64,000 bases of DNA from Pelagibacterales bacterium SAG-MED30. GTDB lineage: Bacteria > Pseudomonadota > Alphaproteobacteria > Pelagibacterales > Pelagibacteraceae. The stretch is from positions 1 through 64,000 of the forward strand of contig JACWEA010000001.1 in the NCBI GenBank assembly GCA_014653775.1, read 5' to 3'. The notes beneath the pieces were generated by a model. The model made no database searches and was not told where the DNA came from. It saw only the letters and a program-made list of their open reading frames with translations. Below, piece by piece: positions 32,732 through 39,076 of this stretch (position 1 is the first letter of the stretch; each line of letters begins with the position of its first letter). The position numbers were made by a program, and so were the translations under genes.

Positions 32732-33517
32732 ATGTCTGAAAATATTTTAGAGATTAATAATCTATCTAAATATTTTGGTGGATTGGCAGCTGTTTCAGAT
32801 TGTTCGCTTAAAGTTAAAAAAGGAACTATAACCGGCATTATTGGTCCTAATGGGTCAGGAAAAACCACATTATTTAATTTAATTGCCGGTAATTTAAAAT
32901 CTTCTTTTGGGAAAGTTATGTTTTGCAATGAAGATATTACTAATGTTCCTTCATATGAATTATTTTCTAAGGGTTTGCTTAGAACTTTTCAAATTGCTCA
33001 TGAGTTTACTAATTTATCTGTTTTAGAAAATTTAATGATGGTTCCAGGTAATCAATCTGGAGAAAAACTAATGAATGCTTTATTAAAACCATCATTAATT
33101 GCAAAAGAGGAAAAAAAAATCAAAGATAAAGCAATTGAGGTTGCTGAATTTCTCAATCTAGGCCATTTAAAAAATGAATTAGCAGGAAATTTATCTGGTG
33201 GTCAAAAAAAGTTATTAGAATTGGGCCGCACAATGATGGTTGATGCTAAATTAGTTTTATTAGATGAAGTAGGTGCGGGAGTTAATAGAACTTTACTTAA
33301 AGATCTTGGTACTGCAATAGAAAAGCTTAATAAAGAAAAAGGTTATACTTTTTGTATGATTGAACATGATATGGATTTTATAGGAAGACTTTGTGATCCT
33401 GTAATTGTTATGTCTGAAGGATCTGTTCTTTTTGAAGGTTCTGTTGAAGAAGCAAAAAAAGATGAAAAAGTTATTGAAAGTTATTTGGGCAGAGGATCAA
33501 AACTGAAAGATAATTAA
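32732..33517 (+). CDS. livG: Liv-type ABC ATPase LivG (system 2)
   Basis: Nucleotide-binding subunit, 261 aa. Walker A is GPNGSGKTT, the signature is LSGGQKK and Walker B is LVLLDEVGAGV; the C-terminus KVIESYLG is typical of LivG. It opens the transporter part of a second operon (livG-livF-livH-livM), a different gene order from system 1 (livK-livH-livM-livG-livF). The two LivG proteins differ enough that this is not a recent duplication. Confidence 0.92.
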   Translation: MSENILEINNLSKYFGGLAAVSDCSLKVKKGTITGIIGPNGSGKTTLFNLIAGNLKSSFGKVMFCNEDITNVPSYELFSKGLLRTFQIAHEFTNLSVLENLMMVPGNQSGEKLMNALLKPSLIAKEEKKIKDKAIEVAEFLNLGHLKNELAGNLSGGQKKLLELGRTMMVDAKLVLLDEVGAGVNRTLLKDLGTAIEKLNKEKGYTFCMIEHDMDFIGRLCDPVIVMSEGSVLFEGSVEEAKKDEKVIESYLGRGSKLKDN

Positions 33518-33518
33518 T

Positions 33519-34226
33519 ATGGCATTTTTTGAAGGTAATAATATGACAGGTGGATATGGAAAAGGTCCTGATATTATTAACTCATGTTCTGTAAATGTTG
33601 AAAGGGGTGAAATAGTTTCAATTCTTGGACCTAATGGTGCTGGAAAATCAACTGCAATGAAAGCAATGCTTGGATTATTAAATTTAAAATCTGGTTCAGT
33701 GATTATTAATGGAAAAAATATTTCCCATTTATCTCCTCAAGATAGGGTTAAAGAAGGTATTTCATTTGTACCACAAAATAAAAATGTTTTTGCAGGCATG
33801 ACAGTTAAAGAAAATTTAGAAATGGGAGCTTTTTTAATTGATGGCGATATTAAAACAGTAATCGAAGAAATTTACAATCTATTTCCAGTTTTAAAAGAGA
33901 AAAAAGATCAGTTAGTTGGTGAATTATCAGGAGGACAAAGACAACAAGTGGCATTAGGTAGAGCATTAATGATTAAACCTTCTGTTTTAATGTTAGATGA
34001 ACCAACAGCAGGGGTTTCTCCAATTGTAATGGATGAATTATTTGATCATATAGTTAAAGTTAAAAAAACTAATGTTGCTATTCTAATGGTAGAACAAAAT
34101 GCAAAACAAGCATTAAATATTTCGGATAGAGGGTACATTTTGGTAACTGGTGAAAATCGTTATTCCGGAACTGGAAAAGAATTATTGAACGATCCAAGAG
34201 TTAGAAGTTCTTTTTTAGGAGGTTGA
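33519..34226 (+). CDS. livF: Liv-type ABC ATPase LivF (system 2)
   Basis: Second ATPase, 235 aa, the normal LivF length. Walker A is GPNGAGKST, the signature is LSGGQRQQVALGRAL and Walker B is VLMLDEPTAGV. It starts one base after livG. A very good Shine-Dalgarno (AGGAGG) at its end serves livH. Confidence 0.93.
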   Translation: MAFFEGNNMTGGYGKGPDIINSCSVNVERGEIVSILGPNGAGKSTAMKAMLGLLNLKSGSVIINGKNISHLSPQDRVKEGISFVPQNKNVFAGMTVKENLEMGAFLIDGDIKTVIEEIYNLFPVLKEKKDQLVGELSGGQRQQVALGRALMIKPSVLMLDEPTAGVSPIVMDELFDHIVKVKKTNVAILMVEQNAKQALNISDRGYILVTGENRYSGTGKELLNDPRVRSSFLGG

Positions 34227-34227
34227 T

Positions 34228-35238
34228 ATGGATTTTGCAAACGCAATTATACTTTTATTAAACTATATTTTTGTTCCTGCTTTAGCTTATGGTTCACAAT
34301 TAGCACTTGGTGCAATTTTTGTTACTTTGATATATGGAATTTTGAGATTTGCAAACTTTGCTACTGGAGACATGATGTCTTTCGGGACCATGGTTACAAT
34401 CTTATTTACTTGGTATTTTCAATCTTTGGGTATTAGTTTAGGTTTTTTACCAACAGCTCTTTTGGCTATACCTTTTGCTATCATATTTATGGCTAGTTAT
34501 ATGCTATTAATAGATAAGTTTGTTTTTAAATATTACAGAGTTAACAAAAGTCCTCCAGTTCAATTAGCAATGGTAAGTATTGGGGTAATGTTTGTTACTC
34601 AAGCAGTAGTTAGAATAATAATCGGTCCTTCAGATAGAAGATTTTTTGATGGAGAAAAATTTTTAATAAGAGCAGGAGAATTTAAAGAAATGACTGGATT
34701 AAATGAAGGTCTTGCAATTAAATCTACTCAAGTTATTACCATTATAGTAACAATGATCTTAGTATCAGTTCTTTTTTGGTTTTTAAACAAAACTAGAACT
34801 GGAAAAAGTATGAGAGCATACTCAGATAATGAGGACTTAGCATTACTCTCTGGAATTGACCCAAAAAAAATAGTTATGATTACTTGGATTATTGCAGGTA
34901 TTTTAGCTACAATAGGAGGAGCTTTATATGGTTTAGATAAAAGCTTTAAACCATTTACCTACTTTAATAATATGCTTCCAATATTTGCTGCAGCTATTGT
35001 TGGTGGAATTGGAAATCCATTCGGAGCTTTTTTAGGTGGATATGTAATAGCTTTTTCAGAAATACTTCTAACTTATGCATATAAGAAGTTTTTTATGTAT
35101 GTTTTACCTGAAAGCATGGAGCCCGAAGGTTTAGTTCAGTTGCTATCAACAGATTATAAATTTGCTGTTTCATTCTCAATATTAGTTATCGTGTTGTTAT
35201 ATCGGCCATCAGGTATCTTTAAAGGAAAAATACTATGA
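34228..35238 (+). CDS. livH: Liv-type ABC permease LivH (system 2)
   Basis: Permease of 336 aa. LivH-type motifs are GAIFVTLIYGILRFANFATGDMM and the ATPase-contact loop GKSMRAYSDNEDLALLSGID. Slightly longer than the system 1 counterpart (297 aa). Preceded by AGGAGG and overlapping livM by four bases. Confidence 0.91.
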   Translation: MDFANAIILLLNYIFVPALAYGSQLALGAIFVTLIYGILRFANFATGDMMSFGTMVTILFTWYFQSLGISLGFLPTALLAIPFAIIFMASYMLLIDKFVFKYYRVNKSPPVQLAMVSIGVMFVTQAVVRIIIGPSDRRFFDGEKFLIRAGEFKEMTGLNEGLAIKSTQVITIIVTMILVSVLFWFLNKTRTGKSMRAYSDNEDLALLSGIDPKKIVMITWIIAGILATIGGALYGLDKSFKPFTYFNNMLPIFAAAIVGGIGNPFGAFLGGYVIAFSEILLTYAYKKFFMYVLPESMEPEGLVQLLSTDYKFAVSFSILVIVLLYRPSGIFKGKIL

Positions 35239-36605: not shown

Positions 36606-36612
36606 TATTAAT

Positions 36613-36681
36613 ATGAAATATATTATTTTAGGAGCCGCAATAGCTTGGGCCATGTACATGGCAGATAAGTACATGTTTTAA
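36613..36681 (+). CDS. 22-residue hydrophobic miniprotein
   Basis: ATG at 36613 opens MKYIILGAAIAWAMYMADKYMF, ending with TAA at 36679-36681. The last A of the stop is the first A of the next gene's ATG (TAATG), a classic translational-coupling overlap. The product would be a single short membrane helix with a small charged end. There is no clear Shine-Dalgarno before it (position is 7 bases after livM). Without this frame the 75-base gap would leave the MFS gene with no ribosome entry site. Function is unknown and expression is unproven. Confidence 0.5.
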   Translation: MKYIILGAAIAWAMYMADKYMF

Positions 36682-37850
36682 TGAACAAAAATCTTTGGCT
36701 ATTGATTTTAAGTCAGATTTTTGCTTTTACTGCTGCACCTGTCACAGTTTTTTTAAGTGGAATTATAGGTAACAAATTTACTCCTATAAAATCTTTAGCA
36801 ACTTTACCTATGGCATTGTCCATAGTCGGCATAGCAATATTTGCAATATTTGCAGCTAAAATAATGAGTATAATTGGGCGTAGATTAGGATTTATTCTCG
36901 CTTCAATTGGAAGCTCAGTTGCATCATTGATAGCCGCATTCTCAATAATAATAGAAAGTTTTATTTTTTTTAATTTAGGATGTTTTTTACTTGGTGCTGC
37001 GGTAGCTTTTAGTCATCAATATCGTTTTGCAGCTGTAGAAACTGTCAATAAAGAGATGGCGCCAAAAGCCATATCAATAATATTATTAGCAGGAGTTGGT
37101 TCAGCTTTTATTGGACCAAATTTAGCTAATATTTCAAAGGAACTTATTTCAAATCATTTATATGCAGGCTCATATATTGTTCTTGCTATCTTAACTTTTT
37201 GTTCAACATTTTTTTTATTATTTTATAAAGATAATCATAAGTCAAATGCAATTTATAAAAAAACTACCCGAACTTATTTTGAATTACTTTCAAATCCAAG
37301 ATTTCTTCAAGCTTTAATAGCCTCTGCTTTTGCATATGCTGTTATGTCTTTTTTAATGACTGCAACGCCCATTAGTATGCATGTAATGGAAAAAATAAAT
37401 TTGACTAAAACAGGTGTTGTAATACAGACTCATATTGCAGCAATGTTTTTACCATCATTAATTACAGGGAATTTAATTAAAAAATATGGACATAGTAAGA
37501 TAATGTATACTGGAGTTGTCCTGTTTTCAGTAACAATAATAACTAGTCTATTTGATCAAAACTTTATAAATTATTTAATAGCTTTAATATTTTTAGGATT
37601 TGGCTGGAATTTTTTATTTATATCTGGAACTAGTTTATTAGTACTATCTTATAGAGAAGAGGAAAAATTTAAAGCCCAAGGTTTTAATGATTTTATTGTT
37701 TATTCAGTTCAAGCAGTAGCAAGTTTATCTGCTGGAGTATTTCTAAATTTAACAAGCTGGAAAACAATGAATTTAATTTGCATAATTTTTTTAATTATTA
37801 TTGTCATCTCAACTTTGAGAGCAGATATTATACAAAAAAAACCCCAGTAA
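36681..37850 (+). CDS. Major facilitator superfamily transporter
   Basis: A 389-residue protein with about twelve membrane spans and a Gly-rich MFS layout (IIGRRLGFILASIGS between spans 2 and 3). The substrate is not recognisable. Its ATG overlaps the stop of a 22-codon frame, and its last codons and stop lie inside the stem of the terminator that follows. It is the last gene of the system 2 liv operon and so may export or import a related compound. Confidence 0.83.
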   Translation: MNKNLWLLILSQIFAFTAAPVTVFLSGIIGNKFTPIKSLATLPMALSIVGIAIFAIFAAKIMSIIGRRLGFILASIGSSVASLIAAFSIIIESFIFFNLGCFLLGAAVAFSHQYRFAAVETVNKEMAPKAISIILLAGVGSAFIGPNLANISKELISNHLYAGSYIVLAILTFCSTFFLLFYKDNHKSNAIYKKTTRTYFELLSNPRFLQALIASAFAYAVMSFLMTATPISMHVMEKINLTKTGVVIQTHIAAMFLPSLITGNLIKKYGHSKIMYTGVVLFSVTIITSLFDQNFINYLIALIFLGFGWNFLFISGTSLLVLSYREEEKFKAQGFNDFIVYSVQAVASLSAGVFLNLTSWKTMNLICIIFLIIIVISTLRADIIQKKPQ

Positions 37851-37871
37851 TTTTCATTACTGGGGTTTTTT
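37836..37871. terminator. Bidirectional terminator between convergent genes
   Basis: AAAAACCCCAGTAAT (37837-37851) pairs with ATTACTGGGGTTTTT (37856-37870) around a 4-base loop, flanked by A on the left and T on the right, so it works on both strands. The stop codon of the MFS gene lies within its left arm. Confidence 0.92.
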
Positions 37872-37885
37872 GAATAAGATATTAA

Positions 37886-39076
37886 CTATCTTTGTTTTTT
37901 AGTTTTAAATTTTCCGTATTTAACTTCTTGTTCTAAAAAAGAACCCTCAGCTTCACCTACGTCAGTAAAAGTAACACCTGTTGCACCTTCATAGTCAACT
38001 TTTTTACCTTTAGCTAATAAATCTAAACCTTTTTTAAGTTCACCTGGGTAAATCTTTGTTCCAGGGCCATTAGCAACATCCATTACATTTTTTGCAATTG
38101 ATGCTCTATCAGCTGATCCACCTGCTTGAATTGCTAAAATAATTAAAGCTGCGGCATCATATGATTCTCCTGTGTAAGGACCAGAACTATCAATACCAGC
38201 AGCGCTAGCTACTTTACTAAATACTCCTGCACCTTTTCCAGTTGAGCCAGGCATAGAACCAAAAGATTTATTTAAATCTTTTCCAAAAGCATCTGCTAAT
38301 GATTGACCAATCATACCATCCGATAAAACAAATGTATCAAATGCACCAGAATCTAAAGAAGCTTGAATAATACCTTTTCCTCCTTGGTCAAGGTAACCAA
38401 TTACAGCTACCGCATCTCCACCCGCTGAAGCAAGAGTTGCTACTTCAGATGAATAATCAGCTTTACCATCTTCGTGAGCTGTAACAGTTGTAACTTTAAT
38501 ACCATGAGCTTTAACTGCTGCTTCATAAACATCAGCTAAACCTTTTCCATAGTCATTGTTAGTATAAGTTATAGCTACACTTTTAACTTTTCTATCTTTT
38601 GTGATGTCAGCTAAAATTTGACCACCTCTAGCATCAGATGGTGCAGTTCTGAAGAAATACCCATTATCATCTAAAGTTGTTAATCCTGGAGATGTTGCAG
38701 ATGGTGAAATCATTACTACACCATTTGGTACAGCAACGTTTGATGCTATAGCACCAGTTACACCTGAGCAGTCAGCTCCCATAATTGCAGCTACTCCACC
38801 TGAAATTAAACCTTCAGCTGCTGCAGTCGCTGCCGCTGAGTCAACACAAGTTGAGTCTGCTCTTACTGGTTCAATTTTTTTTCCTCCTAATAGCGAACCT
38901 GAATCAGAAGCTTCTTTAAATGCAAGTTCTGCAGATGCTGCCATAGCTGGAGTTAGAGATTCAATAGGACCAGTAAATCCTAAAATAATCCCCATTTTAA
39001 TCGCATGTCCGTCAGCCATTACATTTGTTCCAAAACTTGAAACAAACATGAAAATAGCAATAAATATTTTTTTCAT
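37886..39076 (-). CDS. livK: Liv-type ABC transporter substrate-binding protein (system 2)
   Basis: Periplasmic binding protein of the type I branched-chain amino acid/amide family, 396 aa. The signal peptide spans about 1-21 (ends VMA), followed by IKMGIILGFTGPIESLTPAM. Gly/Ala/Ser-rich compared with the system 1 binding protein, and with a SADSTCVDSAAA-like segment (ADSTCVDS) containing a likely disulfide Cys pair. A Shine-Dalgarno (AGAGGA) precedes the ATG. It converges on the system 2 livGFHM operon and is its probable partner, though this is inferred from proximity. Confidence 0.9.
   Translation of the reverse strand: MKKIFIAIFMFVSSFGTNVMADGHAIKMGIILGFTGPIESLTPAMAASAELAFKEASDSGSLLGGKKIEPVRADSTCVDSAAATAAAEGLISGGVAAIMGADCSGVTGAIASNVAVPNGVVMISPSATSPGLTTLDDNGYFFRTAPSDARGGQILADITKDRKVKSVAITYTNNDYGKGLADVYEAAVKAHGIKVTTVTAHEDGKADYSSEVATLASAGGDAVAVIGYLDQGGKGIIQASLDSGAFDTFVLSDGMIGQSLADAFGKDLNKSFGSMPGSTGKGAGVFSKVASAAGIDSSGPYTGESYDAAALIILAIQAGGSADRASIAKNVMDVANGPGTKIYPGELKKGLDLLAKGKKVDYEGATGVTFTDVGEAEGSFLEQEVKYGKFKTKKQR

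Follow-up and report, generated by a model that had tools for sequence, protein, structure and literature searches.

A candidate single-span microprotein of the Pelagibacteraceae whose gene has different neighbours from lineage to lineage

What does a reading frame of 22 codons do when it is wedged between two transporter genes, and to which of the two, if either, does its product belong? The window analysed here comprises the first 64,000 nucleotides of contig JACWEA010000001.1 of Pelagibacterales bacterium SAG-MED30 (assembly GCA_014653775.1). Within it, a forward-strand gene run contains livG, livF and livH (32732..35238, named by eye from their sequence and order), then livM, a branched-chain amino-acid ABC permease gene (PF02653, 35235..36605, stop codon 36603-36605) that is the usual upstream neighbour in the genus, and finally an MFS transporter gene (PF07690, 36681..37850), an optional downstream neighbour. 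A single forward-strand ATG frame of at least 20 codons occupies the gap between livM and the MFS gene, running from the ATG at 36613 to a TAA that ends at 36681 (36613..36681, encoding MKYIILGAAIAWAMYMADKYMF). It is separated from the livM stop by a forward-strand spacer of 7 nt (36606..36612) with no Shine-Dalgarno (SD) motif, and its TAA shares the last A with the ATG of the MFS gene (36681-36683), forming a forward-strand TAATG at 36679..36683. A sequence-only reading of this DNA had described the frame as a 22-codon gene for one hydrophobic helix; no internal stop interrupts it, and residues 3-17 are hydrophobic and uncharged (Kyte-Doolittle mean 1.75), in agreement with that description. 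On the far side of the MFS gene lies a convergent, reverse-strand gene for a livK-like binding protein (37886..39076, named by eye). An 11-bp symmetrical hairpin with T runs, noted by eye at 37840..37871 and not flagged by a terminator scan, spans the MFS 3' end facing livK and is probably a two-way terminator for the two convergent genes.

Judged from comparison among genomes, the frame is a real gene under protein-level selection. Two overlapping sets of loci were picked by their MFS gene, without reference to the miniprotein. In the closest other MFS orthologues (L003-L029, 76-85% MFS identity) the frame was intact in 27 of 27, so the frameshifts or stops in close relatives that had been named as grounds for abandoning the gene did not appear; in the second set (L032-L063, 75-98% MFS identity) it was intact in 32 of 32. 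Among the remaining 50 MFS loci (L030, L031 and L064-L111, nearly all 56-71% identical), 21 lacked the frame throughout the locus. Its persistence in the closer relatives is not merely carry-over through short divergence. The exact window protein is encoded by 21 distinct DNA sequences and a close variant, MKYIITGAAIAWALYMADKYLF, by 23, with 14 of 66 sites varying silently in each case. Over 144 distinct miniprotein sequences from motif-picked loci, with pairs pooled and relatedness ignored, pN/pS was 0.30, and the synonymous share of differences in these same sequences, relatedness again ignored, was 43% as against the 17% expected under random substitution. Conserved residues and synonymous change in SAR11 relatives, the pattern that the sequence-only reading had suggested looking for, are both present, the former as five unchanged residues.

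The motif behind the 144-sequence set, and behind the set used for helix faces, already demanded G, Y and DKY, and for this reason the claim of invariant residues rests on positions reported by the search. In the 60 best-scoring loci, which come from four genera and were taken with search-reported positions and no motif filter, G7, Y15, D18, K19 and Y20 were unchanged in all 60 and position 11 was always G or A; the same five residues, and G or A at position 11, were also present in every one of 40 copies that scored lower or had been relocated. No charged residue occurred at positions 3-17 in any of 96 variants. The aligned variants are 22-32 residues long, with N-terminal extensions in other genera and, in genus g3, a C-terminal extension as well; codons other than ATG at position 1 include GTG or TTG, in 7 of 197 records. 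Conservation along one face of the helix looked suggestive by eye and was not significant in the motif-picked loci (permutation p = 0.16), so a packing face is treated here as hypothetical.

The 22-residue query matched 136 of 201 genomes of the genus, mostly at full length, and a profile built from the variants matched 39 of 46 genomes of the family's other genera at E <= 2.9e-5. Outside the family, none of six sister-family genomes matched the profile at E <= 0.03, the best sister-family score in the order sample being only E 0.04. In 289 genomes of the class, the matches reaching E <= 0.01 were those in the window's genome and in another member of the genus, plus two partial hits in UppP, and 398 genomes of the phylum gave nothing beyond the window's genome at E <= 0.001; whatever else these two samples yielded from outside the family was weak and partial. 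From this pattern, the miniprotein is on current evidence a Pelagibacteraceae protein. Profile matches weaker than E 0.001 were excluded from the genus, order and family counts; seven sub-threshold loci that were opened placed the match in a synthetase-like frame of 416-452 aa (five loci), a 580-aa frame and a 64-aa frame. Three near-complete genomes (G217, G225 and G233, 97-99% complete) have no miniprotein even with the broader profile, which indicates that the protein is dispensable.

Its size and hydrophobicity would also be expected if the miniprotein were the toxin, small and hydrophobic, in a type I toxin-antitoxin pair. We regard this as most improbable, since the gene lies inside metabolic gene runs, is strongly conserved across the whole family and, at the level of the window's 22 residues, found no tblastn match in phage and plasmid records. 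An origin from a virus or plasmid was rejected on those same records, alongside a single match on a viral contig. That contig (L354), on which an MFS-like start is present, could be a piece of host DNA.

For the junction with the MFS gene, the sequence-only reading had proposed that ribosomes terminating at TAATG could restart on the transporter. All 87 distinct copies directly linked to the MFS gene have the stop-start overlap (82 as TAATG and 5 as TGATG), which suits termination-reinitiation and shows that the coupling architecture is real. The one-base overlap is found also in copies with an extra 23rd residue, and is therefore retained despite the change in length. The further observation that the MFS gene has no visible ribosome site of its own was accurate (an SD-like 4-mer precedes it in 0 of 87 linked copies). 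It is weak evidence for coupling, because 27 of 33 unlinked MFS copies likewise have no such 4-mer (six do, and a few of the starts are uncertain), as do 158 of 167 miniproteins. Judged by the overlap, coupled translation of the miniprotein and the MFS gene is plausible.

Whether this coupling reflects a shared function is a separate matter. A dedicated regulator or stabiliser would bind the MFS protein, with the coupling fixing the ratio of the two, and the sequence-only reading had implied a tie of this kind. The exact overlap in every linked copy would suit such a role, as would the closing of the gene run, by eye, with the terminator-like hairpin after the MFS gene. The distribution of the two genes does not bear it out. 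Among the 201 genomes of the genus, many of them incomplete and all taken as independent, 75 have both genes, 61 the miniprotein only, 29 the MFS gene only and 36 neither, a co-occurrence not beyond chance (Fisher p = 0.18; the MFS set is 104 of 108 genomes, four weak matches of E 4e-5 to 7e-4 being excluded). Of the 136 genomes that carry the miniprotein, just 45 have it beside the MFS gene. Six loci (L112, L113, L115, L116, L119 and L124) encode exactly these 22 residues but lack an MFS gene in the flank examined, MFS orthologues are found behind other genes or alone with the miniprotein absent, and the neighbours are different in other genera. At L115 (genome G019), a window-identical miniprotein runs through TAATG into a gene for a TauE/SafE exporter (PF01925, 253 aa, 1567-2330) with no MFS gene behind it, so the overlap appears to be a habit of the junction and is not specific to MFS. 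We therefore consider a dedicated MFS regulator very unlikely, and the best reading of the coupling is that it is a local arrangement for expression, not the function of the miniprotein.

The upstream neighbour has a stronger claim. Across the 136 genomes of the genus with the miniprotein, livM lies within 430 nt upstream in 123 (at 30 nt or less in 114 and at 383-430 nt in 9); the miniprotein is elsewhere than livM in ten and no livM match was found in three. In the directly linked copies listed, the miniprotein starts 0-9 nt past the livM stop or overlaps livM, the start overlapping the stop in, for example, L182-L185, L188, L072-L074, L084, L087, L165, L167, L168 and L170-L173. A gene of 123-124 codons fills the longer gap in the three such loci that were opened. 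The one of these intervening genes that was scanned, from a sub-lineage of the genus, is thioredoxin-like (L155 5721-6089, 123 aa, PF00085 E 2e-8, with an apparent signal peptide). Co-occurrence with livM in the genus is strong (133 genomes with both, 3 with the miniprotein only, 19 with livM only and 46 with neither; Fisher p ~3e-26, the genomes again being taken as independent). Such tracking would fit the joint loss of linked genes, and it would fit a livM-related role within the genus as well.

In the latter case the miniprotein could belong to the Liv ABC permease as a small subunit, following livM in the genus and lost together with it. Apart from proximity and co-occurrence, this idea gains from eight genomes in which the miniprotein has relocated and livM is retained on another contig (G004, G005, G031, G048, G087, G120, G163 and G185). 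For G020, also counted among the ten, both genes are at contig ends and their arrangement cannot be judged. Of the three genomes with no livM match, one (G182) carries part of livM at the end of a contig; the other two (G106 and G151) have the miniprotein next to livK with no match to the window's livM, which speaks against a Liv subunit, as do 13 genomes of the genus in which the sequenced part of the livM 3' flank contains no miniprotein. The other genera also weigh against it: 35 of their 39 genomes with the miniprotein show no livM orthologue, including the near-complete G340, G209 and G229. The four that have both genes are G363, G369, G396 and G419 (livM 78% identity); in G363 livM is 64 kb from the miniprotein, and in the rest the two are on different contigs. 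From this comparison of genomes, livM is not a constant partner of the miniprotein, and a Liv subunit seems to us unlikely. Neither a LivM subunit nor an MFS partner was supported by the co-occurrence and adjacency tests. For tiny genes, a neighbour conserved at the level of the genus, as livM is here, can mislead; sampling beyond the genus removed the obvious partner.

The liv region itself varies in ways that may be recorded here. At the miniprotein sites of G106 and G151 (L161 and L266), livGFHM is absent, which leaves a proC-like gene (by eye), the miniprotein and a livK in divergent orientation; further liv-type genes, of 26-40% identity, are located 3-5 kb off. A LivK homologue encoded at L258 601-1830 on the reverse strand opens with an N-terminal stretch rich in lysine together with a membrane span (MAQKKNNMGIIIIAAIIVV...) and is apparently anchored, not secreted.

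Several further junctions were found, with neighbour families assigned by Pfam on one representative each and the other loci matched by eye through the same N-termini and spacing. In seven genomes of the genus (L143-L149) the miniprotein precedes a DUF4396 gene, either immediately or across a single intervening frame, and in G185 it follows an FrhB-like gene. Elsewhere in the family, it stands just before a Mem_trans carrier gene in genus g4 (3 of 3 loci read), overlaps the end of a PRA-PH/MazG-like gene in genus g5 (4 of 4), and in genus g3 (G209) is flanked upstream by a dehydrogenase-like gene (by eye) and downstream by a sulfate permease gene. In genus g6 a 458-aa MFS gene of a different type lies upstream of it at a distance of 735 nt (6 of 6), and at one locus of that genus (L279) it abuts an NlpC/P60 gene. 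Frequently, the miniprotein start coincides with or adjoins the stop codon of the gene before it. The constant element is the peptide and not its neighbour, the junctions being different from lineage to lineage, and on this ground the miniprotein probably aids some membrane protein other than the MFS transporter.

The junction positions and overlapping stop and start codons, together with the one genome whose overlap enters a different gene (TauE/SafE), could be taken to mean that the frame is a non-functional leader, which does no more than pass ribosomes leaving livM on to whichever gene follows and whose peptide is irrelevant. We give this hardly any credence. The amino acids are conserved where a convergent livK follows and there is no same-strand gene after the miniprotein (e.g. 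L112, L113 and L116), they are conserved across genera with differing contexts, and the changes that do occur are mostly synonymous.

Is the peptide related to anything already described? The sequence-only reading called it unannotated, and this holds to the extent of three collections: NCBIfam and PHROGs returned no family for the two members given to each, and a Pfam scan of 36 members gave no convincing family, the scan touching three families with one member each (E 0.018-0.25). Beyond these, the miniprotein had no match among solved structures. PetG and PetM, single-helix subunits of the cytochrome b6f complex, were the only families of helix-stick subunits that Pfam gave, each for one of the 36 members at E ~0.02, a chance-level score; to our knowledge, SAR11 has no b6f complex. 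A second resemblance comes from UppP/BacA, the undecaprenyl-pyrophosphate phosphatase, of whose central helix the miniprotein could be a stand-alone copy or mimic that joins or tunes the enzyme. The two partial matches in the class genomes, the only ones outside the family at E <= 0.01, fall in this helix at ..GIIFGLLLYIADKY and ..FGILLYLADKYS (E 0.002 and 0.007), the corresponding helix of SAR11 UppP ends in a comparable way, as [YF]-x-[AS]-D-[KR], and hhalign returned a probability of 37% over 14 columns. Against this, about three chance matches are expected at that threshold in 289 genomes, and a prolyl-tRNA-synthetase-like protein (by eye) reaches 11.5-12.2 bits compared with 14.4-15.6 for the two best UppP. 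Of 37 genomes tested, 36 had UppP whether or not they had the miniprotein, the exception being the window's own genome, which is 67% complete; the presence of UppP is therefore uninformative. A UppP-helix mimic is, in our estimation, quite improbable, and as sequence likenesses both the UppP helix and PetG/PetM seem to be weak leads only.

A comparison can also be made with known small membrane proteins of similar build. CydX is encoded with cydAB, and KdpF has about 29 residues. Like members of the small single-span class, the miniprotein is short, has one uncharged hydrophobic span, predicted to insert, and has an amino-acid sequence under selection. AcrZ of E. coli is a small transmembrane helix that binds AcrB, an efflux pump (PMC7267776), CydX, a 37-residue membrane-complex subunit of cytochrome bd oxidase, has been studied through its conservation (PMC4325964), and a third example is KdpF, the small subunit of the Kdp potassium ATPase (PMC10903887). 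AcrZ packs against a larger membrane protein, a mode that the miniprotein might share; however, the partner of AcrZ is known whereas the miniprotein's gene neighbours vary by lineage, and AcrZ was not matched when 36 members were scanned with Pfam. CydX is similarly very short, although the miniprotein has no constant operon partner, and KdpF shares the size class and likewise went unmatched in that scan. The small-protein passages of PMC10903887 make no mention of SAR11 or Pelagibacter, and literature on small proteins of SAR11 and Pelagibacter, taken as titles and the beginnings of abstracts with few subscription journals, held no description of the miniprotein. By analogy, the miniprotein may be a new family within the single-helix small membrane proteins and may work as AcrZ, CydX and KdpF do.

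Taken together, we think it fairly probable that the gene encodes a single-span microprotein of the Pelagibacteraceae, a candidate trans-acting helix for a membrane protein encoded elsewhere, and that it borrows the translation of whatever neighbours it has. Almost never provided with an SD sequence, the miniprotein would be translated by ribosomes fresh from the upstream gene, here livM, and the 7-nt spacer could permit ribosomes ending livM to restart on it. In the lineage of the window, its stop would then hand ribosomes on to the MFS gene. The product would be inserted as one helix in the inner membrane, where G7-xxx-[G/A]11 could mediate helix packing and the Y-xx-DKY-x-F end, through Tyr15 and Asp18-Lys19-Tyr20, could anchor the helix at the membrane interface. 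There it would serve as an accessory helix in trans for its membrane protein partner.

What is unusual is a 22-codon gene whose position shifts while its key residues do not. A more specific version of the proposal, which we offer tentatively, is that of a nomadic microgene: 22 codons with five fixed key residues, placed at no fewer than seven unrelated junctions, fed with ribosomes from upstream and coding for a trans-acting subunit of a membrane complex specific to the Pelagibacteraceae. SAR11 is one of the most numerous cell groups in the ocean and has very reduced genomes, so 22 residues kept under selection have to justify their cost. Gene callers and ordinary proteomics often overlook proteins of this length, and this one is therefore likely to be absent from models of the SAR11 membrane.

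Two observations on related frames may be added. A frame of about 65 aa, read in G399 only (L281 / L291), has a C-terminal helix (...PVYILMGIVIAMMFYEAFGDKK) with a weak likeness to the miniprotein; frames of 64-66 aa in the miniprotein-negative genomes G134, G141, G183, G032 and G035 are among the matches listed at E 0.001-0.1 and may be due to chance. In G090 (genus g1, 68% complete), a second miniprotein, of the g5 type and in the g5 context beside a PRA-PH-like gene (L175 3975-4052, reverse strand), is found in addition to the livM-linked one, and may represent a second copy, a transfer or a mixed assembly.
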